Part shown: positions 4,521 through 31,768 of the stretch, piece after piece
How positions within the stretch are numbered: position 1 is the stretch's first letter
Layout: the number at the start of each line of letters is the position of its first letter
Assembly (NCBI RefSeq): GCF_029255285.1
Contig: NZ_JAPUVI010000043.1
Coordinates: 1 to 64,000, forward strand
Length of the DNA: 64,000 bases
Direction: 5' to 3'
Source of the DNA: Accumulibacter sp.
Lineage (GTDB): Bacteria; Pseudomonadota; Gammaproteobacteria; Burkholderiales; Rhodocyclaceae
Position numbers and translations under genes: made by a program
Notes under the pieces: model-generated
Databases searched by the model: none
What the model was told of the DNA's origin: nothing
What the model saw: only the letters and a program-made list of their open reading frames with translations

Positions 4521-4956
4521 TTGGCATTCCATGCACTTCGTTGGCGCGCTTTACGAAAGCGTCGACAAAAGTATTGGCGATCTGACTGAAAACCGGGCCG
4601 ATCACCTTTTCGAACATGCGGCTCGAAAACTCGTAGGAAAGCTGGAATTCAATCTTGCAGGCCTGTTCGGTCAGCGGCTTGAAACGCCAAAGGCCGTCAA
4701 GGCGACGAAAGGGGCCATCGACCAGACTGATTTTCATCCACAAAGGGGACTCCTTATCGTTCTCGGTCGTGAAGTGCGACTTGACGCTGCGGTAATTGAT
4801 GTGCAGGGTGGCCACCGTCTTTCGGTCGTTCCGAAACTCACAGCGTGTCTGGCTGCACCACGGCAGGAACTGCGGATAGTCCTCGACGCGGTCGACGAGA
4901 TCGAACATCTGCTTGGAAGAATGCTCGATCAGCACCGACTTGTTGACCATGGCCAT
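4513..4956 (-). CDS. ratA: RatA, START-like ribosome association toxin / ubiquinone-binding family
   Basis: A 147-residue START/Bet v 1-fold protein of the RatA/COQ10 family. The N-terminal [20 protein letters not shown] and C-terminal ERANEVHG-like end are typical. E. coli RatA binds the 50S subunit and blocks 70S association; the related COQ10 proteins bind ubiquinone. Its pairing with rnfH and divergence from smpB is the conserved arrangement in beta- and gammaproteobacteria. An AGGTG ribosome-binding site lies about 10 bases before ATG 4956; an ATG at 4950 and a GTG at 4968 are also in frame, so the exact start is not certain. Confidence 0.93.
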
Positions 4957-4981
4957 CCGCTGCCACACCTCATGAATCCTG

Positions 4982-4998
4982 TAGAATCAATCATTCTA
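4982..4998. promoter_or_regulatory. dyad placing TAGAAT -10-like boxes on both strands between ratA and smpB
   Basis: TAGAAT (4982-4987), a 5-base spacer and ATTCTA (4993-4998) form a perfect inverted repeat midway between divergent ratA and smpB. Each strand therefore shows a -10-like TAGAAT pointing at its own gene, about 50 bases from smpB and 30 from ratA. I found no clear -35 boxes. It could be overlapping divergent promoters or a protein-binding site. Confidence 0.4.
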
Positions 4999-5045
4999 AC
5001 ACTCTCCGTCCCATCCCGAATCCACTTACCCCGAGAAACGGCACC

Positions 5046-5492
5046 ATGAGTATCGTCGCCAACAAGAAGGCTTTTCATGACTTTTTCATCGAAGAGAAGA
5101 TCGAGGCCGGTCTGCTCCTCGAGGGCTGGGAAGTGAAAGCCATCCGTGGCGGCCGAGCAAGCATCAAGGAAGCTTACGTGGTCATCCGAGGCGGCGAAGT
5201 CTTCCTGTTCGGCATGCATGTCACGCCGCTGCTGGCGGCGTCGACGCATGTCAGGCCCGACCCGGTACGAACCCGTAAGTTGCTGCTGCACAGCAGGCAG
5301 ATCGGCAAGCTGATCGGCCAGGTCGAACGTTCTGGCTACACCTTGGTGCCGCTCGATCTGCATTTTCAGCGCGGCCGCATCAAGATCGAAATTGGCCTGG
5401 CGAAGGGCAAGAAACAGTACGACAAGCGGGAGTCGGAGAAAGAACGCGACTGGGTTCGCGAAAGAGCGCGTCTGTTGCGCGAGAAAGCCTAG
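5046..5492 (+). CDS. smpB: SsrA-binding protein SmpB
   Basis: Binds tmRNA and delivers it to stalled ribosomes for trans-translation. The 148 residues start [34 protein letters not shown], the conserved SmpB N-terminus. The C-terminal basic tail ([23 protein letters not shown]), which enters the mRNA channel of the ribosome, is complete. No tmRNA gene was seen nearby. It diverges from ratA-rnfH, the usual order. Confidence 0.98.
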
Positions 5493-5573
5493 GGTGGGTT
5501 GACGGCGCACCAAATAGACCGATGTGAAGAGGGCGATAATTGTTTACCATCGAGTCTTTGCAGAAAGGGAATC

Positions 5574-6893
5574 ATGGCCGTCGCGCCCGAGAACGCCATC
5601 ATGGCGTTGTATTGTGACTTTGAGAACGTCGCGCTTGGTGTGCGCGACGCCAAGTACGACAAGTTCGACATCAAGCCGGTACTCGAGCGCCTTCTGCTCA
5701 AGGGCAGTATCGTCGTCAAGAAGGCCTACTGTGACTGGGAGAGATACAAGGGCTTCAAGTCGACCATGCACGAGGCGAGCTTCGAACTGATCGAGATTCC
5801 CCATCTTCGGCAGTCCGGCAAGAACTCGGCCGACATCCGGCTGGTGGTCGATGCACTGGATCTTTGCTACACCAAGTCGCACGTTGACACCTTCGTGATT
5901 ATCAGCGGCGACTCCGACTTTTCGCCGCTGGTATCGAAGTTGCGCGAAAACGCCAAGTACGTGATTGGGGTGGGCGTCAAGCAGTCGACTTCGGATCTGC
6001 TGATCGGTAACTGCGACGAGTTCATCTTCTACGACGACCTGGTGCGCGAGAGTCAGCGAACGGCGAGACGCGATTCGAAGGAATTGCCGCCGGCGGTTCG
6101 GCGTTCGCCCGAGGAGGATGCGCAGCGCCGGGCCGAAGTCGAAGCGCGGCGCAGCAAGGCGATCGAACTTGCGGTGGCGACTTTCGATGCCCTGGTCGCC
6201 GAGCGCGGTGACAGCAGCAAGATCTGGGCGTCCATGCTCAAGGAAGCGATCAAACGGCGTAAGCCGGACTTTAGCGAGTCGTACTACGGTTTCCGGGCTT
6301 TCGGCAACCTGCTCGAGGAGGCGCAAGCGCGCGGTCTGCTGGAAATCGGCCGCGACGAGAAGTCGGGGACTTACGTCTATCGCACTAACGGTGTGCCCGC
6401 ACCACTTCCGCCTGCAGTCGAGCCGCTGCTCGAAACGGTGACAGAGACGCTCGTCGAGCCGGTGGACGAGGGCGTCGGCGGCGAGCCGGCGACCGAGGCG
6501 TCGGACGTTCGCCGGAAGGCGCAGGGCAGGCGCAAGGCGGGCGAAAAAGGGGTGCGGCGGAGTCGCGCAAAGGAAGTCAAGGAAGACGCCGTGGACGCCG
6601 AAGTCGTCGAGCGCGCGGCGGACCTTGTCATGGCACCTGCTGTCCATGATCTGCCGACCGACGGCCAGGTTCCGGGAGCGAGCGAGGCGGCCGGTGAAAT
6701 CCCGGCCGCCGAAGTGAGCCTAACGACAGCCGGCGTCGAGAGCTTGCCGGCGGTAGGCGAAGCTGAACCGGCTGCCGAACAGATGACTCCGCTGGTGTCG
6801 GGTGACGAAACCCCGGCCAAGATGGTACAGAAGCCCGCGAGCCGCAGCCGCCGGCCGCGCAAGCCTAAGGAAGCGCCGGAAGAAGCCGTCTGA
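5574..6893 (+). CDS. NYN (PIN-like) domain protein with OST-HTH/LOTUS domain
   Basis: A 439-residue protein. The NYN ribonuclease-like domain (about residues 8-155, LabA/DUF88 type) has the acidic residues Asp15 (YCDFEN), Asp87 and the SGDSDF motif at 111-116, which point to a metal-dependent RNase. A winged-helix OST-HTH/LOTUS domain follows (about 195-270, YYGFRAFGNLLEEA), a predicted RNA-binding module. The last 170 residues are low-complexity, rich in Glu, Ala and Pro, and end in a very basic SRSRRPRKPK segment. Start ATG 5574 is preceded by AAAGGGA; upstream in-frame codons lack such a site. Target RNA is unknown. It converges with panD over a strong terminator. Confidence 0.88.
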   Translation: MAVAPENAIMALYCDFENVALGVRDAKYDKFDIKPVLERLLLKGSIVVKKAYCDWERYKGFKSTMHEASFELIEIPHLRQSGKNSADIRLVVDALDLCYTKSHVDTFVIISGDSDFSPLVSKLRENAKYVIGVGVKQSTSDLLIGNCDEFIFYDDLVRESQRTARRDSKELPPAVRRSPEEDAQRRAEVEARRSKAIELAVATFDALVAERGDSSKIWASMLKEAIKRRKPDFSESYYGFRAFGNLLEEAQARGLLEIGRDEKSGTYVYRTNGVPAPLPPAVEPLLETVTETLVEPVDEGVGGEPATEASDVRRKAQGRRKAGEKGVRRSRAKEVKEDAVDAEVVERAADLVMAPAVHDLPTDGQVPGASEAAGEIPAAEVSLTTAGVESLPAVGEAEPAAEQMTPLVSGDETPAKMVQKPASRSRRPRKPKEAPEEAV

Positions 6894-21817: not shown

Positions 21818-24469
21818 TCAGCCACCGGCCAGTCCGGCCAGGCGCGAGAGATCGCCGCGCCGCAGGTCGCCGCGCAGCGGCGTCAAATCCGTCCCCGCCT
21901 GTACGACACGCGTGAAATCCTTCGCCGAGCGCGGCGGCCCGACGTAGATCGCGCCGACCAGCACGCCCTGGCGCAGGATCAGCCGCCACCACGCCGCATC
22001 GTGCGGCGCCGCGGTGTATTCCTCGTCGCCTGGGCGGGCGACGATTTCGCCGAAACTGCGCAGATCGATACCGTCGCACTTGAGCTGCAGTACGATGCGC
22101 GGAGCCTGGTAGGTGGTATCCAGGCCGAGCAGCGCGCCGGCGGCCGTGTTCGCCTGAGCCACGCCGACCGCCCACAGGCCGCCGATCGCACCGGGCAACT
22201 CGGCGACGTCGCCGATGGCGTAGATGTCCGCGTCGCTGGTCCGCATGCAGGCATCGACCTGGATGCCGCGGCCGACTTGCAGCCTGGCGGCGCGCGCCAG
22301 TTGCACGTTGGCGCCGATGCCGAGGCAGGCGACGAAGACATTCGCCCGCGCGCAGGGGCCGTGGGCCAGCCACGCGGCACGCAGCGTTTCACCTCGACCC
22401 TCCCAGCGGCTGACTTGAGTGTCGGTGAGCACCTCGATACCGATGCCTTCGAGATAGGCGGCCAGACGGGCGGCACCCTGTTCGTCAAGTTGGGCGTTCA
22501 TCAGTCGGTCCGATCGCTGCAGGAGAGTGACGTGCAAACCCAGGTGATGCAAGGCGTCGGCCGCTTCGACGCCGAGTACGCCGCCGCCGACGACCAGCGC
22601 GCGCCGTGCCAGCCGCCGTTGCACGTAGTTGCGCAAAGCCTGCGCATCCTCGGCCGTGCGCAGGACGAAAGCGTTTTCGAAGGACAGGAAGTCGGCGTCC
22701 GGCGTCGTTCCGTGCGCCCCGGTGGCCAGAATCAGCTTGTCGTAGGGCAGGCTCTCGCCGGTGGCCAGCAGTACCGTCTTGTTCTGCCGGTCGATCGAGC
22801 GGACGATCGAGTTGCGCCACACCGCGACCCGGTTGCGGTCGTACCAGTTGTCCGGGATCAGTTGCAGGCCATCCATGCCCGTGCGGCCGTAGATCAGCCG
22901 GCCGATCGCCATGCGGTTGTAAAAGTGCAGCGGTTCGCTGCTGATCATGTCGATCTGCAGCGAGGCGCTGAGGCGGCGCAACTGTTCGGCGGCACTGGTG
23001 CCGGCGACGCCGTTGCCGACGATCAGGACTCGCGAAACGCCGCTGCCCAGCGCATGGTCCACCGCTGGCGCGGCCGGCGTCGCCGCCGCCGGCTCGTCGG
23101 CGGCGGAAGTCGGATCGCGATCGATCACCACCGGGCCGCTGACCCGGCACATGCACGCCAGCCGTGCCTTGCCTTCCAGTCCGAGGCGGCGCAGCGTAGC
23201 CGTTTCGTCGTCGCCGGCCGGAGACAGGTGCTTGCTGCCGGCGCACACGACCACCGCGTCGGCACCACAGAGGCCAGCCCGGCAGCCGTAGTTGATCTTC
23301 AGGCCGGCGCTTTCGATGGCATCGAGCAGCGTGGCGCCGGGCGCGACCGGGAAAGCGATTTTCGTCTCGCGATCGGTTACCTCCGCTGTCTGCTTGCCGC
23401 CGAAGCGGGTACGCATTTGGGTCTTTCGGCTTGGCTCGGGCGCTGGCTCGGCGGCCTTGGCGGACGCCTGGCGAAACAATCCTTCGGCGTACAGGCTGGC
23501 GCCGAGCAGGACCAGGCCGCCAATGGCACCGACGCTGCGCGTCGCCGCGACGAGCCAGTCGGGCGGCGCAAACGAAAGAAATCGGGACAGCGTGGCGAGC
23601 ACGATGGGGCCGCCAAACCAGTAGAATATGGCCAGCGCGACGGCAGCGAAAACCGCGGCGACGCGGTGCGGCGACAAGGGGAAAAAGCTGGTGGCGATGG
23701 CATAGAGTCCGGCCGACGCGCAGCAGGACGCGAGCAGGATGGCGAGATAGATCTCGTAGCCGTAGCCCTGGCTTGGCCCCTGCAGAAAATAGCCGCAGAT
23801 CAATCCGGGCAGCAGGCCGATGAACAGGCGGCGCTGGCCGGCGTAGCGCGGGTCGGGATCGGCGAGGTCGGCAAAAATCGCGCCACGTGGGTTGAAGTCG
23901 TAGCAGTTCTTCTGACATCCGACGCAACTCGGGCAATAGCCGTTCGGCACGACGACCAGGGGTGCCTGCCCATAGGTGCGCTGAATCGGTCCGAGGGGAC
24001 AGAAAGTGCCACACCAGCCGCTGCGCCCGGCGAAGATCAGGCCGCCGACAAACGCCAGACTCAGTACGCCGACGATCCCCGCCGCCACCAATGCGCCTTC
24101 GTGGTTGAGAAGCGGCGCGCGGGCGGCGACACAGGTCAGGAAAAGGGTGACGGCGACGAGAAAAGCGGTGTCCTTCCACTTGCCAGGCAAGGGTCGATTG
24201 CGACTGCTGTTGGTCATGCGCGGAATCTGGTTCACAAAGGCCATCGGACAGATCTGTCGCCACAGACCGGGAGCGATCACCAGTACGGCGGGCAGCACGG
24301 GGATCGCCAGCCCCCACCAGAGCGGCAGTCCGATCGCCGGATCGACCGTCAACAGGACGGCGAAACCCAGGGTGAGCAGCAGCGTGGCGACGCGCAAGAC
24401 CTGCCAGACAGGCTTCGGCAAGGCCGACCGGCGCTTGGTGTAGTTGGCGAAGAAGACTTCGGGGTTCAT
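21818..24469 (-). CDS. three-module membrane redox protein: NosR/NapH-like FeS core, [2Fe-2S] ferredoxin domain and FAD/NAD(P) reductase
   Basis: An 883-residue fusion. Residues 1-330 hold 7-8 membrane segments and, between them, CGTFCP (Cys153/157) and a ferredoxin-type C-x2-C-x2-C-x3-C cluster site (Cys179, 182, 185, 189), resembling NapH/NosR polyferredoxins. Residues 360-450 form a ferredoxin-like domain with Cys396, Cys401, Cys409, Cys439 and Cys441; the usual third ligand position (404) is Asp. Residues 478-850 are a pyridine nucleotide-disulfide type reductase, with an FAD site GNGVAG, an NAD(P) site GGGVLG and DADIYAIGDVAE. A plausible role is moving electrons between NAD(P)H and quinone or periplasm. 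It is upstream of kefF and kefC in the same orientation. Confidence 0.82.
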   Translation of the reverse strand: MNPEVFFANYTKRRSALPKPVWQVLRVATLLLTLGFAVLLTVDPAIGLPLWWGLAIPVLPAVLVIAPGLWRQICPMAFVNQIPRMTNSSRNRPLPGKWKDTAFLVAVTLFLTCVAARAPLLNHEGALVAAGIVGVLSLAFVGGLIFAGRSGWCGTFCPLGPIQRTYGQAPLVVVPNGYCPSCVGCQKNCYDFNPRGAIFADLADPDPRYAGQRRLFIGLLPGLICGYFLQGPSQGYGYEIYLAILLASCCASAGLYAIATSFFPLSPHRVAAVFAAVALAIFYWFGGPIVLATLSRFLSFAPPDWLVAATRSVGAIGGLVLLGASLYAEGLFRQASAKAAEPAPEPSRKTQMRTRFGGKQTAEVTDRETKIAFPVAPGATLLDAIESAGLKINYGCRAGLCGADAVVVCAGSKHLSPAGDDETATLRRLGLEGKARLACMCRVSGPVVIDRDPTSAADEPAAATPAAPAVDHALGSGVSRVLIVGNGVAGTSAAEQLRRLSASLQIDMISSEPLHFYNRMAIGRLIYGRTGMDGLQLIPDNWYDRNRVAVWRNSIVRSIDRQNKTVLLATGESLPYDKLILATGAHGTTPDADFLSFENAFVLRTAEDAQALRNYVQRRLARRALVVGGGVLGVEAADALHHLGLHVTLLQRSDRLMNAQLDEQGAARLAAYLEGIGIEVLTDTQVSRWEGRGETLRAAWLAHGPCARANVFVACLGIGANVQLARAARLQVGRGIQVDACMRTSDADIYAIGDVAELPGAIGGLWAVGVAQANTAAGALLGLDTTYQAPRIVLQLKCDGIDLRSFGEIVARPGDEEYTAAPHDAAWWRLILRQGVLVGAIYVGPPRSAKDFTRVVQAGTDLTPLRGDLRRGDLSRLAGLAGG

Positions 24470-25002: not shown

Positions 25003-26652
25003 TCAAGCCGTCTTGCCATCGTCGCCCGGCAGCGATGCGCCGCCAAAGGTTTGCAGGAAGGAACGGACGGGTTGCTCGGGCTGCAGGGCGGCGCGGCTGT
25101 TCCAGCGTTCGACATAAATGTCCCACAGCCGCGCTTTGCGTGAGCTCAACAACTGGCCGATGAAACTCTCCGCGGACGCCGCCTGGTCGATGGCTTCTGG
25201 GGCCAGTTCTTTGGACAAGACCCGGGTCGCCACTCGAACGGCGGCGTCGATCTGCCGGAAGTGCTGGCGCAACTCGTCAAGGCTCGCCTGGAACGCTTGG
25301 CGGCTGTCGAGAAAGGCGCGTCTCGGTGGTCCGAAGAGCACTCGCAGGGCTTCTTCGTTGGTCGGCATGATGGCCAGCGGATTGCTGGTACCGGCGCGCA
25401 CGCCCGACGGCGGGCCGACCGAGGCGTCGCGCATGACCAGCAACTGGCGGATTTCGTCGGTGAGGAGCAGCACGAGTTCCGCCAGTTGTCCGCCGAGTGC
25501 GGCGGCATCGGTTTCACCGATGTCGGCCGGCGAAAGCCCCAAAGCGTTGGCCACGGCGGCCAGAAAGCGGTCGTCCGCCGTGGCCGCCGCAGGCGATCGT
25601 CCTTCGCCTCGGCTGCCGCCTTCGTCGCCCGTCTCGGCAGGCGGCCGATCGGCGTCGCCCGCGTCGCCCGTTTTTGCGGTCTGGACTTCCCCTGTCGTTG
25701 CCGCCGGTTTTTTGGGCACCCGTGCCAGGCGGGTCACGCCGTCGTCGCCTGGAGCGGCTTTCGCGCCGGCGGCGTCGCTTCCTCCAGCGGCTGCCACCGG
25801 GATAGCCGGCAGGTCGGCCAGCGTTGCCGCCGGGTCGCCGCCGCGCCGCGCGCTCCCGCGAGGCCGGGCCGCCGCTGGCGGTGGCGAAGAAACCGCCTCG
25901 GGCGGTGAGGCCGGGGCTTGCTCTTCCGCCTTGCCGGTCGGCGGCACGCTCCTCGGCAGGCCGCTGATGCGTACGGCGATCAGATAGCTGCCGATCAACA
26001 GCCGGTCACCGTCGGACAAGCGATAGGCGCTGGTGATCCGCTCGCTGCCACCATTGACGAAGGTACCGTTGGCGGATCTGTCCTCGAGCAGGAAGGCGCC
26101 GTCGGCGAAGCGGATTGAGCAGTGGTCGCGGGAAACGCCGCCGGTCCGGTCGGGCAGCGTCCAGTCCGCATTGTCGTCGCGGCCGATCTTCAGCATCCCC
26201 TGGCGGCCGAGCCGGACCGCCGGTGGCTGCAGGTCGCCAGGCTTGTTGTCGACCGTCAGTTCCAGCCAGGGTTCGGCAGCCGTTGCGCCAATTAGGCGCG
26301 TCCGCTCGTCGGCCGCCGGCTGTTCGTCACCACCGCTCAGTTCGACGCGGACGACGTAGGCACCGATCCGCAGCCTCTCGCCATCGCGCAAGTTGTGCGG
26401 ACCGCTCAGACGGGTCGGGCTGCCGTCGATGAAGGTGCCGTTGGTCGACAAGTCGTACAGCAGGTAGCTGTCGGCCGAGCGACGAATTTCGCAGTGCCTG
26501 CCCGACATCAGCCGGCTGGGATCCGGCAGAGTCCAGTCGAGGCCGGTCAGGCGTCCGATGGCGAGGCACTCCCGGTCGCCGAAGTCGATGCCGGTATCGG
26601 CGTCGGCCGGCAGACCCGTCGCGTTCTCGAGCGTCAGACGAAGACATTTCAT
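25003..26652 (-). CDS. double FHA-domain protein with TagH-like (type VI secretion) C-terminal region
   Basis: A 549-residue cytosolic protein. FHA 1 spans about residues 20-105 (Arg34, Ser50, His53, Asn71 of the phosphothreonine-binding set) and FHA 2 about 135-228 (GRDDNADW, SRDHCSI, NGTF). A low-complexity Pro/Ala/Gly linker covers 235-390. The C-terminus (NPLAIMPTNEEALRVLFGPP, then AESFIGQLLSSRKARLWDIYVERW) resembles the C-terminal domain of T6SS FHA proteins (TagH/ImpI). No other T6SS gene is in the window, so it is an orphan or works elsewhere. FHA domains bind phosphothreonine, implying a Ser/Thr kinase partner. Start ATG 26652 has an AGGAG site. Confidence 0.85.
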   Translation of the reverse strand: MKCLRLTLENATGLPADADTGIDFGDRECLAIGRLTGLDWTLPDPSRLMSGRHCEIRRSADSYLLYDLSTNGTFIDGSPTRLSGPHNLRDGERLRIGAYVVRVELSGGDEQPAADERTRLIGATAAEPWLELTVDNKPGDLQPPAVRLGRQGMLKIGRDDNADWTLPDRTGGVSRDHCSIRFADGAFLLEDRSANGTFVNGGSERITSAYRLSDGDRLLIGSYLIAVRISGLPRSVPPTGKAEEQAPASPPEAVSSPPPAAARPRGSARRGGDPAATLADLPAIPVAAAGGSDAAGAKAAPGDDGVTRLARVPKKPAATTGEVQTAKTGDAGDADRPPAETGDEGGSRGEGRSPAAATADDRFLAAVANALGLSPADIGETDAAALGGQLAELVLLLTDEIRQLLVMRDASVGPPSGVRAGTSNPLAIMPTNEEALRVLFGPPRRAFLDSRQAFQASLDELRQHFRQIDAAVRVATRVLSKELAPEAIDQAASAESFIGQLLSSRKARLWDIYVERWNSRAALQPEQPVRSFLQTFGGASLPGDDGKTA

Positions 26653-26977
26653 GCGTTGCTCCTGGAAAGTGGTGGGTCGGCCGAGCGACGGCCCGTGGCG
26701 CTCCTGTCGGTCGTTGTTGCGGATCGGACGTGGCGCATTCTCGGCCAAAGCGCTACTTTGGGGCAAGCGCTTTCCGGACGGAATTCGTTCGCCAATTCAG
26801 CACCATGCTCATGGGATTTGACGGCGAGTGGCGAGGTCGGGGATACTCCGGACGCGGCGTCAGGCGGCCGTCAAGCCGGCATGACGCGCGTTGGGGTTTG
26901 AGTCGGCGCAGGCCGGCACTTTCGCCCATTCCAAGCCAGTGTCCAAACGATGCAACCGACCCGGAAGGCGGGAAGCC
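26653..26977. other. 325-base divergent intergenic region between the FHA gene and the CBM21-EEP gene
   Basis: It contains no credible gene but must carry two divergent promoters. The one clear element is an inverted repeat, AAAGCGCT (26747-26754) and AGCGCTTT (26766-26773), spaced by 11 bases. I could not assign a confident -35/-10 pair on either strand. Confidence 0.5.
26747..26773. promoter_or_regulatory. inverted repeat AAAGCGCT-N11-AGCGCTTT in the divergent promoter region
   Basis: Perfect 8-base arms, each itself containing the palindrome AGCGCT, are centred about 110 bases from the FHA start and 220 from the EEP start. It is a candidate binding site for a regulator of both divergent operons. 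No known regulator is matched. Confidence 0.4.
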
Positions 26978-28483
26978 ATGGAGAAAATCTCTCTCATCTA
27001 CGCGCAAAACCTGATCAACAGAAAAGCGGCGATGGCGCAGCAGGAGTTGTCCTTCGTCGTGCTGGTCGACAACCTCTGTTACGACAAAAGCGTCGATGTC
27101 GTGTGGGCCGGCGAGGACGGCGTCTGGCATGCCGTGCCGGCGTCCTATCACGGCGGCGCCGATCAGCAGCGGGAATACTGGCTTGCCCGTCTGACGTTTG
27201 CCGTCGCGCCCGACAAGCCGCTGCCGGGAAACGTCCAGTTTGCCTTGTGCTATCGCGCACTCGGCAAGGAGTACTGGAACAACAATGATGGCCGGAACTA
27301 CGCCATTCAGGCGGATTCCGGGATTCTGCCCGGGCCGGGGAGGGGGGTGGTCAATACCGGTTTCGAGAGCCGCCTGAGTGACGAGGACTCGCCGGTTCGG
27401 CTCGTCGTCGGGGTGGACACCGGCTTGGCGGCCAGGGCGGTCAGCATCCAGTGGTCGACCGACAACTGGCGGACGACGCGCCAGACCCCGTGTCGCCTGG
27501 CGACGGACTACTGGGACGAGGCCTGGCTCAGCAACGCCCGCAACCCGAATCACTACGGCTGCCAGGTGTGGAGCGGCGCACTGCGGGCGGCGGATGCCTT
27601 CCGCGTCGACTATCGGATTCGCTGCGAGACGCGGCGTGGCATCGTCTGGGACGATAATTTCGGCACCAGTTATGCGATCCAGCGCCCGGCGCTGAAGGTC
27701 TTGATCCTCAATCTGCATTGTTGTCAGGAGGACAACCAGGACGACAAGCTGTCACAGATTGCCAAGGCGATCGGCGAACTCGAGGTGGATATCGTGTGCC
27801 TGCAGGAGGTGGCCGAACTCTGGAACGACGGCCAGGGCGACTGGCAGACGAACACGGCGCGGATCATCAACGAACGCCTGGAGTCTCCTTATCATCTGGT
27901 CAGTGACTGGTCCCATCTGGGCTTCGAGCGCTATCGCGAAGGCGTTGCGCTACTCAGCCGCTACCCGATTCGCAAACATTCGGCGAGATACGTTTCCGCC
28001 AGCCAGGATCCCTTCAGTATTCATTCGCGAAAAGTCGTGATGGCACAGATCGAAGTGCCAGCGGTCGGACTGATCAACGTCTTCTCGTCGCACTTGAGCT
28101 GGTGGGAAGACGGTTTTGCCGAACAATTCGAGACGCTTCGGCGGTGGGCGCGCGACGAGCACGGTAGCCGCGTGGTGGCGACGATGCTCGGCGGTGATTT
28201 CAACATCAAGGCGGGTGCGGAAGGTTATCGATTGGTGGTCGCGGCGAACGAATACGAAGACCAGTTCCTATTGGTCAAGTCGCCGTCGCTGTTCCACCGG
28301 ATTTTCGAGGCGGGGGATTCGCACTGGCATCACGAGTTGGCCGACGACCGTCGCATCGACTACATTTTCCTGCGCAAGGGGAGTGCGCTGCGCGTCACTT
28401 CGGGTCGCGTCGTGTTTACCGAGCGGGACTACGGGACGGTCTCCGACCACGCGGGTTATCTGATGACTTTCGTGCCGAAGTGA
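26978..28483 (+). CDS. endonuclease/exonuclease/phosphatase-family protein with two CBM21-like glycogen-binding modules
   Basis: A 501-residue protein without signal peptide. Two N-terminal beta modules (about residues 20-112 and 138-236) each end in the CBM21 hallmark: W100NNNDGRNY and W224DDNFGTSY, with STDNWRTT before the second. These modules bind starch or glycogen and in animals target PP1 to glycogen. Residues 238-501 are an EEP (DNase I-like) domain with LNLHC, LQEV (Glu277), SSHLSWW, GGDFN, RRIDYIF and SDHAGY (His491), so the metal-dependent phosphoesterase site looks complete. The substrate is unknown: nucleic acid, sugar phosphate or phospho-glycogen are all possible. Start ATG 26978. 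The PLD-like gene follows 79 bases later. Confidence 0.82.
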   Translation: MEKISLIYAQNLINRKAAMAQQELSFVVLVDNLCYDKSVDVVWAGEDGVWHAVPASYHGGADQQREYWLARLTFAVAPDKPLPGNVQFALCYRALGKEYWNNNDGRNYAIQADSGILPGPGRGVVNTGFESRLSDEDSPVRLVVGVDTGLAARAVSIQWSTDNWRTTRQTPCRLATDYWDEAWLSNARNPNHYGCQVWSGALRAADAFRVDYRIRCETRRGIVWDDNFGTSYAIQRPALKVLILNLHCCQEDNQDDKLSQIAKAIGELEVDIVCLQEVAELWNDGQGDWQTNTARIINERLESPYHLVSDWSHLGFERYREGVALLSRYPIRKHSARYVSASQDPFSIHSRKVVMAQIEVPAVGLINVFSSHLSWWEDGFAEQFETLRRWARDEHGSRVVATMLGGDFNIKAGAEGYRLVVAANEYEDQFLLVKSPSLFHRIFEAGDSHWHHELADDRRIDYIFLRKGSALRVTSGRVVFTERDYGTVSDHAGYLMTFVPK

Positions 28484-28562
28484 CGGCGCACGGCGCGGCA
28501 AGCGCTATTACGCTGGCGACAACACGTGGCCAGCATTGAACAGGACTTTTTTCAGTCAGGCG

Positions 28563-30155
28563 ATGAAAAAAGCTGAGAACTATGCAGTACCGGTACACGG
28601 AAACCTCGGTGGGTCGTTTCCGCGGGTCAACGACTTCAACGAGAAGTTCTATCTGCGCTGGGGCAAGATCCTCTTCGACGTCTCGTACGGCGCTCAACTC
28701 AACGTCAAAGTGATCCTCAGGGTTTACCGCGAGCACCATATTTGCGAAACCTATGTCGTCGACACCGACCCTTACGATGTCCATTGGGACCACCACAAGC
28801 GCCGCACACGGGACTTCTACATCCACCCATTTTCGAACACCTTTGGGCATATCACCTGCGTCAAGTTTGCCTACGTCGTGCACCTCGACGAGCACTCCAC
28901 GGCCTCGCAACTCGAGTACATTTTCATGGACGGCGGGCAGGTGCGGGACGGGCATCCGCAATACCGGCGGATCACCGCCGAGTGGGCGACCGAAAACCAC
29001 TATCGCACGCACGAGCTCCAGGCCTGGGAGTTGCAGAGCGACGTCGACTGGTACAACCACCATTTTGAATCGCTGCGCCTGATCCCGAAGTTCACCAAGG
29101 GGCAGCAGTATCATCCCTACCATCCGAAGCGCTTCATCCACGATCACATCGACAAGGTGATCCATTGCAAGCGCGAGCATCCAGGCCGCTTCTGCACGAT
29201 CAAGGTAAGCGTCGATTGCATCGATGACCACGACTTCACCCAGCACCTCGTGCATGCCAGTCATCATGGCGTCTGGGTGCAGTGCATCGTCGACTGGCGA
29301 AAGATGACGCTGACCAACAGTCCGAACTATGCGCGGCTGAAGCGCGCCGGAATCGAATTGCTGGGGGTGGTGTGCACCCCTCAGCACCACCTGATCGAAG
29401 TCGCTCCGGACATGCACACCAAGTTCATCATCTTCAACGACGAGGACGCGATACTCGGTTCCTTCAACATCACGTTCGACCGCTGGTGGGCGAACTGGGA
29501 ATCGGGAATGACTTTCCATTCACGGGGTGTCTGCCGCCTGCTCGACAACGTTTTCCAGAGCGAGCGGGGGGGTGTCAACCAGAAGTACGGCATCGACCCG
29601 CTCAGCCACTTCAATCTGCTTTACACTTTTGGCCGGCACGCCATGCTGGATGGTCGCTACTACCGTCCGCATCACGCCATCCTGGCCGAGATACACCGTG
29701 CCAGACACTCGATCAGGCTGGTGTTGTTCCTGATCGGCGACCTGCTCGGCGAGCATGGCGACAGCGTCGTCGATGCCCTGATACACGCCAAGAATCGTGG
29801 CGTCTACGTGCATCTCCTGCTCAACGGGCATCTCGCTCGGCAGGGCCGGGTGGGTATCGAACGGTCGATGCACGAGGAACTGAACCGGCCGCTGTTACCC
29901 GCCGTGCAACGCCTGAGGGACGCCGGCGTGGCCGTCGGCCTGGTGTATGGGCAGCAGGATCACCCGGTGCCCTATTCGCCGATCCACTCGAAGTATTGCG
30001 TGATCGACGACGCGACGGTCATCGAAGGCAGCTTCAACTGGTACAACACCTCGGTGTTCTCGCACGACTTGATGGTCCTGGCGACCAACCGCGACGTAGC
30101 GAAAGCCTATCTGTACGAATTCGACCAGATACAGCGGCTCTTCCGCATCTATTGA
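28563..30155 (+). CDS. phospholipase D-like protein with novel N-terminal domain
   Basis: A 530-residue protein, no signal peptide. The C-terminal two thirds contain two HKD half-sites: His285-x-Lys287 (MHTKFIIFNDEDAILGSFN) and His475-x-Lys477 (IHSKYCVIDDATVIEGSFNW), each followed by GSFN, so a complete phosphodiesterase or nuclease active site can form. The first 130 residues are beta-rich with many aromatic residues and match nothing I recognise; they may be another binding module. Cytosolic PLD proteins with a single active site can act on DNA, RNA or phospholipid. It follows the CBM21-EEP gene on the same strand. ATG 28563 is favoured over TTG 28536; neither has a strong ribosome-binding site. 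Confidence 0.8.
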   Translation: MKKAENYAVPVHGNLGGSFPRVNDFNEKFYLRWGKILFDVSYGAQLNVKVILRVYREHHICETYVVDTDPYDVHWDHHKRRTRDFYIHPFSNTFGHITCVKFAYVVHLDEHSTASQLEYIFMDGGQVRDGHPQYRRITAEWATENHYRTHELQAWELQSDVDWYNHHFESLRLIPKFTKGQQYHPYHPKRFIHDHIDKVIHCKREHPGRFCTIKVSVDCIDDHDFTQHLVHASHHGVWVQCIVDWRKMTLTNSPNYARLKRAGIELLGVVCTPQHHLIEVAPDMHTKFIIFNDEDAILGSFNITFDRWWANWESGMTFHSRGVCRLLDNVFQSERGGVNQKYGIDPLSHFNLLYTFGRHAMLDGRYYRPHHAILAEIHRARHSIRLVLFLIGDLLGEHGDSVVDALIHAKNRGVYVHLLLNGHLARQGRVGIERSMHEELNRPLLPAVQRLRDAGVAVGLVYGQQDHPVPYSPIHSKYCVIDDATVIEGSFNWYNTSVFSHDLMVLATNRDVAKAYLYEFDQIQRLFRIY

Positions 30156-30193: not shown

Positions 30194-31606
<1,413 letters not shown>

Positions 31607-31768
31607 CAGGTACTCCTCAATCGCTTCGACACGCCCTCTCGATCCCCGGGCCGCGTGGTCGTGCGGCAAGGCAGCGGTAGGAAGGTCGGCGGAAAGCCCG
31701 CGAGTATAGGTAGGGGGGACAGCCGCCGTCAATCTCCGGCGTTGCCGACCGGCGACGCGGCCGCGTGC

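Follow-up and report, generated by a model that had tools for sequence, protein, structure and literature searches.

The window analysed here is a stretch of 64,000 nucleotides from Accumulibacter sp. (assembly GCF_029255285.1, contig NZ_JAPUVI010000043.1, positions 1 to 64,000 of the forward strand). It carries a gene for a protein in which two carbohydrate-binding modules (CBM) of family CBM21 precede a phosphoesterase domain of the EEP (DNase I-fold) superfamily. The features of this gene are as follows.

26978..28483, plus strand: CBM21-CBM21-EEP protein, 501 amino acids (open reading frame, Pfam scan, alignment)
27032..27307, plus strand: CBM21 module 1, retaining PTG site I (W100, N102, N107) and site II (N32, Y35, D36, K37) (profile and alignment)
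27431..27679, plus strand: CBM21 module 2, diverged, at 24.3 bits below the cut-off, without site II and with site I degenerate (profile and alignment)
27689..28468, plus strand: EEP (DNase I-fold) phosphoesterase domain, MapP-like (Pfam, BLASTP, tree, structural matches)
28097..28117, plus strand: SWWEDGF motif 3' of His372, its WW shared with E. faecalis MapP (alignment)

The Pfam scan places a starch-binding-type CBM and a phosphatase-type domain together in one chain, and the gene is real rather than an artefact. The protein shows both the fold and the catalytic residues of the EEP superfamily (Exo_endo_phos), the latter being invariant in 23/23 rows of the family. An earlier note, made from the sequence alone, had claimed two CBM21-like modules followed by an EEP domain with all catalytic motifs, and this is confirmed by the profiles and the invariant residues. 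It had also claimed that there is no signal peptide; none is evident, and the first strand starts at residue 4. In the comparison with CBM21/CBM53 profiles that the note had proposed, the modules stayed within CBM21, module 2 of the window copy being weak. The CBM21 profile gives 65 bits for the whole protein, which is above the curated cut-off, and 47.2 bits for module 1 alone; in some relatives module 2 also exceeds the cut-off.

The PTG contacts to beta-cyclodextrin given in PMC9582199 include Arg187, Trp193, Tyr196, Cys235, Trp246, Asn248 and Asn253 at site I, and Asn177, Phe180, Glu181, Lys182, Tyr203 and Asp214 at site II. Mapping by alignment covered seven of these positions and left the other six unmapped. 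Trp246, Asn248 and Asn253 correspond to W100, N102 and N107 of module 1, and Asn177, Phe180, Glu181 and Lys182 to N32, Y35, D36 and K37, so that all seven are kept, with Tyr in place of Phe180 and Asp in place of Glu181. Across the 23 rows, W100 and K37 are present in all, N102 and N107 in 21 each and N32 in 20, while position 36 is D/E in 22 and position 35 is Y/F in 19. Module 2 lacks counterparts of site II (alignment built on a Methylobacter copy); its site I Asn pair is present in 14/23 and 16/23 rows, and the window copy has neither. Binding to glycogen is predicted from these features, and targeting of the protein to glycogen is very probable.

Stand-alone proteins with two CBM21 modules were seen in other genera of the order and family (L018, L019 and L026, from genomes G121 and G034). 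They carry apparent signal peptides, judged by eye, and the genes are in tandem in L018 and L019. Paired CBM21 modules thus occur elsewhere as a probably secreted protein, whereas in the Accumulibacter gene they appear fused to an enzyme and leaderless.

Among the EEP proteins gathered, BLASTP with the EEP domain found the MapP clade to be closest (30-32.5% identity, E 5e-23 to 7e-29), followed by L020/L071 (one protein) at 1e-16 and by the remaining matches at 8e-9 to 4e-4. In a 25-row tree of these proteins, E. faecalis MapP and six other sequences form one clade (99/99), which adjoins the window protein's family at 86/82, the two clades being separate. MapP is reportedly a maltose 6'-phosphate phosphatase acting on a disaccharide, with a preference for alpha-linked phospho-disaccharides. 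Its homologous EEP domain shares the motifs SH-x-G-aromatic, H-x-x-WW and VSDH-x-G with the window protein. The WW pair after the active-site His, which lies within SWWEDGF at residues 374-380 of the window protein, was found in 23/23 members of the window family, in 5/7 of the MapP clade (it is missing in L069 and L070) and in 0/10 other EEPs; it may form part of an alpha-glucoside site. Mannosyl-6-phosphatase BT3783 (4c1r) is likewise an EEP enzyme, whose substrate according to the entry title is a mannosyl 6-phosphate, but the sugar is different and the identity is 19% over 228 aligned residues.

The E. faecalis MapP gene encodes no CBM and adjoins genes for the IIBC component of the phosphotransferase system (PTS) and for GH65. 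Within the MapP clade, PTS IIBC is annotated alongside in 4/7 cases, two further genes adjoin one 68-69% identical to E. faecalis IIBC, and no IIBC gene was found beside the Niallia gene. The window protein differs from MapP in its two CBM21 modules, in hosts without PTS_EIIC among those tested, and in the glycogen-synthesis neighbours of its methanotroph relatives. PTS_EIIC was found in 0/8 host genomes of the CBM21-EEP gene, four of which have no completeness value, and a role in a maltose PTS was rejected on this ground.

Gene neighbourhoods were compared at 24 loci from one scan of genome contigs, comprising 9 from Accumulibacter, 14 from methanotrophs (Methylobacter, Crenothrix and Methylococcaceae/Methylococcales) and 1 from SAR324. 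Flanking genes were searched by tblastn at 1e-25, using as queries sequences of the same loci that had been identified with NCBIfam and Pfam. Glycogen-synthesis genes flank the CBM21-EEP gene in 12/14 methanotroph loci, namely those for GH57 branching enzyme (9), GlgA (6), GlgB (6), GlgC (2) and MalQ (1). In L046, glgB is followed by glgA and this, after 18 bp, by EEP. No glycogen-synthesis match was obtained at L050, whose contig begins within the gene, or at L051. Because four of the methanotroph loci were a source of queries, they match themselves, and the Methylobacter loci are close kin; we estimate about four independent arrangements. These neighbourhoods are evidence beyond that available to the earlier note, and we regard its glycogen interpretation as supported.

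The Accumulibacter loci are arranged differently. In 8/9 of them the order is carbamoyltransferase, EEP, PLD, phosphoglycerate kinase, triosephosphate isomerase (the ninth, L037, is a 4.1 kb contig), and 0/9 flanks gave a match to glg genes. GlgA was above its cut-off in 6/6 Accumulibacter genomes tested. The window copy is placed elsewhere, beside an FHA gene and a pyruvate kinase gene, and it too is followed by the PLD-superfamily gene, a partner that the earlier note had overlooked:

28563..30155, plus strand: PLD-superfamily partner with two PLDc domains, motifs HKN then HKD (Pfam, alignment)
30194..31732, minus strand: pyruvate kinase, a convergent neighbour for which no shared unit is claimed

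The PLD gene starts at the ATG at 28563, where Met is kept in 18/18 rows; a TTG upstream at 28536 is also open. With Pfam, residues 1-171 match nothing at E values up to 1. In 18/18 rows Asn replaces the Asp of the first HKD motif, and the second motif lacks its His in 1/18 (L030) and its Gly in 1/18; in L030 (9587-11176, one Accumulibacter species) this His is replaced by Asn. A structural model of poor quality shows likeness to Nuc/Zucchini-type PLDs and, weakly, to polyphosphate kinase 1 (PPK1). The partner resembles DrmC of DISARM at 3.6e-12 in PADLOC, and with NCBIfam at 39.3 bits, below the 133-bit cut-off. In the alignments the PLD proteins are better conserved between Accumulibacter and methanotrophs (74-85%) than the CBM21-EEP proteins (49-66%).

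When 150 genomes were searched with both proteins, PLD and near-full-length EEP matches coincided in 17, which are the genome of the window and 16/27 others of the genus; in another eight genomes the matches were weaker or covered EEP or CBM alone. The two genes share a contig in 16/17 genomes and are split between the ends of two contigs in G017. Among methanotrophs, PLD adjoins EEP in 11/14 loci. The contigs of L045 and L051 stop within about 225 bases of the EEP gene and their genomes have no PLD match, while at L046 the 2.1 kb 3' of EEP is without PLD and its genome yields no more than a stretch of 110 residues, located on a different contig; the genomes behind all three are contig collections of unstated completeness. 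In SAR324 (L049) PLD begins 7.6 kb from EEP, its parts lying on two contigs. The EEP-PLD link is looser outside the genus Accumulibacter.

Among the roles listed in the earlier note (removing phosphate from glycogen, or acting on nucleotides or sugar phosphates at the granule), glucan phosphate removal is now the leading candidate, given the likeness of the EEP domain to MapP. We propose that the protein is a bacterial analogue of laforin, a MapP-type glycogen or phospho-glucan phosphatase tethered to glycogen, and place roughly even confidence in this reading, with the substrate predicted from kinship. It would be a cytosolic phosphomonoesterase performing the function of laforin/SEX4 with a catalytic fold unlike theirs. 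The CBM21 pair, chiefly module 1, would dock onto alpha-1,4-glucan chains, and the metal-dependent EEP site would hydrolyse glucosyl phosphate esters in glycogen, most likely at C6, allowing branching, synthesis and phosphorolysis to go on. Docking and hydrolysis of this kind would together account for the domain architecture, the kinship with MapP, the neighbouring glycogen genes and the lack of PTS_EIIC. The PLD partner probably acts on the same polymer, in a phosphodiester or phosphoryl-transfer step. Glucan phosphate is reported to weaken the binding of branching enzymes, including the bacterial enzyme tested (PMC13011383).

Several points weigh against this proposal. The tree support for the join with MapP is moderate, and the EEP/PLD pair is missing from 2 of the 6 GlgA-positive Accumulibacter genomes. 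No dedicated glucan kinase was recognised in a PPDK_N search of four genomes, in which no GWD-specific model was run; read by eye, the two proteins from the genome of the window are PPDK and another phosphoenolpyruvate-utilising enzyme, and one G015 protein was likewise examined.

The MapP kinship and the shared WW pair would also suit an enzyme anchored at the granule by its CBMs and acting on soluble substrates, either short phospho-maltodextrins or glucose phosphates from glycogen breakdown, much as MapP acts on maltose 6'-phosphate, a disaccharide to judge from a paper title. Two polymer-binding modules would then be hard to account for, and the hosts tested lack PTS_EIIC, which leaves this alternative possible but doubtful. 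That the enzyme is instead a nucleotide-sugar or nucleotide phosphodiesterase at the granule, throttling glycogen synthesis by, for example, hydrolysing ADP-glucose, appears quite improbable given that its nearest sequence matches are MapP-type sugar-phosphate enzymes.

The likeness of the PLD partner to DrmC, together with TDP2 and Nuc-type folds among the structural matches, could point to a nuclease pair for defence or nucleic-acid scavenging, with glycogen binding as mere storage or scaffold. This is hardly probable, as the EEP protein has no match in PADLOC (to 0.01) or PHROGs (to 0.001), the neighbourhoods read by eye contained no recognisable defence gene, and the context is one of glycogen genes; with the DrmC likeness also below its cut-off, the nuclease/defence candidate was rejected. 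The better conservation of the PLD partner might suggest that the EEP protein has only marginal catalytic activity and serves, like plant LSF1, as a regulator or scaffold that brings this or other enzymes to glycogen, but with catalytic residues invariant in 23/23 rows we consider this very unlikely.

An extension of the glycogen phosphatase proposal concerns both genes. Accumulibacter stores glycogen and polyphosphate. The pair could be a phospho-editing module. In it the PLD protein, with its weak structural likeness to PPK1, would form or break a phosphodiester or phosphoryl linkage on glycogen, perhaps with polyphosphate as donor or acceptor, leaving a monoester for the CBM21-EEP protein to remove. 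We think this rather unlikely; if true, it would tie the two stores together and represent the first glucan phosphatase outside the dual-specificity phosphatase (DSP) family and outside eukaryotes.

Laforin is the human glycogen phosphatase that is defective in Lafora disease. Laforin (CBM20-DSP) and SEX4 (DSP-CBM) resemble the window protein in joining a starch/glycogen-binding module to a phosphatase domain in one chain and in targeting a storage glucan, the latter predicted for the window protein. It differs from them in its EEP/DNase I fold, its two CBM21 modules, its bacterial origin and its PLD-family partner. By domain content it is an analogue and no member of the laforin/SEX4 family, because the Pfam scan, taken to E 1, gave CBM_21 and two EEP families only, with no DSP domain. 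PTG, GL and GM, the glycogen-targeting subunits of PP1, have a CBM21 with the same mapped contacts as module 1 and direct a phosphatase to glycogen; PP1, however, is a catalytic subunit on a chain of its own whose targets are glycogen enzymes, whereas the window protein is a single chain with an EEP fold.

In the relevant passages of Gentry and Pace 2009 (PMC2714694), bacteria and archaea are described with single glucan-phosphatase domains and no protein combining both, laforin and SEX4 are reported absent from bacteria, and a bacterial glucan phosphatase is judged unlikely. According to a 2025 abstract (PMC12834914), no glycogen phosphatase other than laforin is known. Among the literature matches listed, none had a title dealing with a fusion of CBM21 and EEP or with a glycogen phosphatase from bacteria. 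If the proposal is true, a bacterial glucan phosphatase in Accumulibacter and methanotrophs would make the 2009 question directly testable, show that quality control of glycogen evolved convergently, and be relevant to how carbon is stored in phosphorus-removal sludge and by methane oxidisers.

The fusion is rare within the sampled genomes. Among 398 evenly sampled genomes of the phylum, the full-length architecture was found only in the genome of the window, and any match in 17. CBM_21 was detected in 18/61 genomes (that of the window and its relatives), 17 of which have the CBM21-EEP gene, and in 0/14 control genomes. The distribution is patchy and suggests horizontal transfer among Accumulibacter, methanotrophs and SAR324. 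A phage origin was rejected after two scans of viral contigs revealed no relative of either the EEP or the PLD protein.

Several other neighbours were observed. A DUF4912 protein is encoded 5' of the GH57 branching enzyme in 9/14 methanotroph loci (L041 5310-5981 and equivalents). The carbamoyltransferase 5' of the pair in 8/9 Accumulibacter loci (L034 6238-7998) has a 37% relative in Crenothrix (L052 2-859), about 7 kb upstream. At L051, the methanotroph locus without a glg match, 4579-6075 encodes, by eye, a Ppx/GppA-type exopolyphosphatase about 2 kb 5' of the EEP gene. In the window, the FHA protein (25003-26766, minus strand) has the C-terminal domain of type VI secretion FHA proteins, and its reading frame was unmatched in the 17 loci compared. 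An 883-residue open reading frame at 21818-24469 (minus strand) appears by eye to join a membrane polyferredoxin part to a 2Fe-2S ferredoxin domain and an FAD-dependent oxidoreductase.
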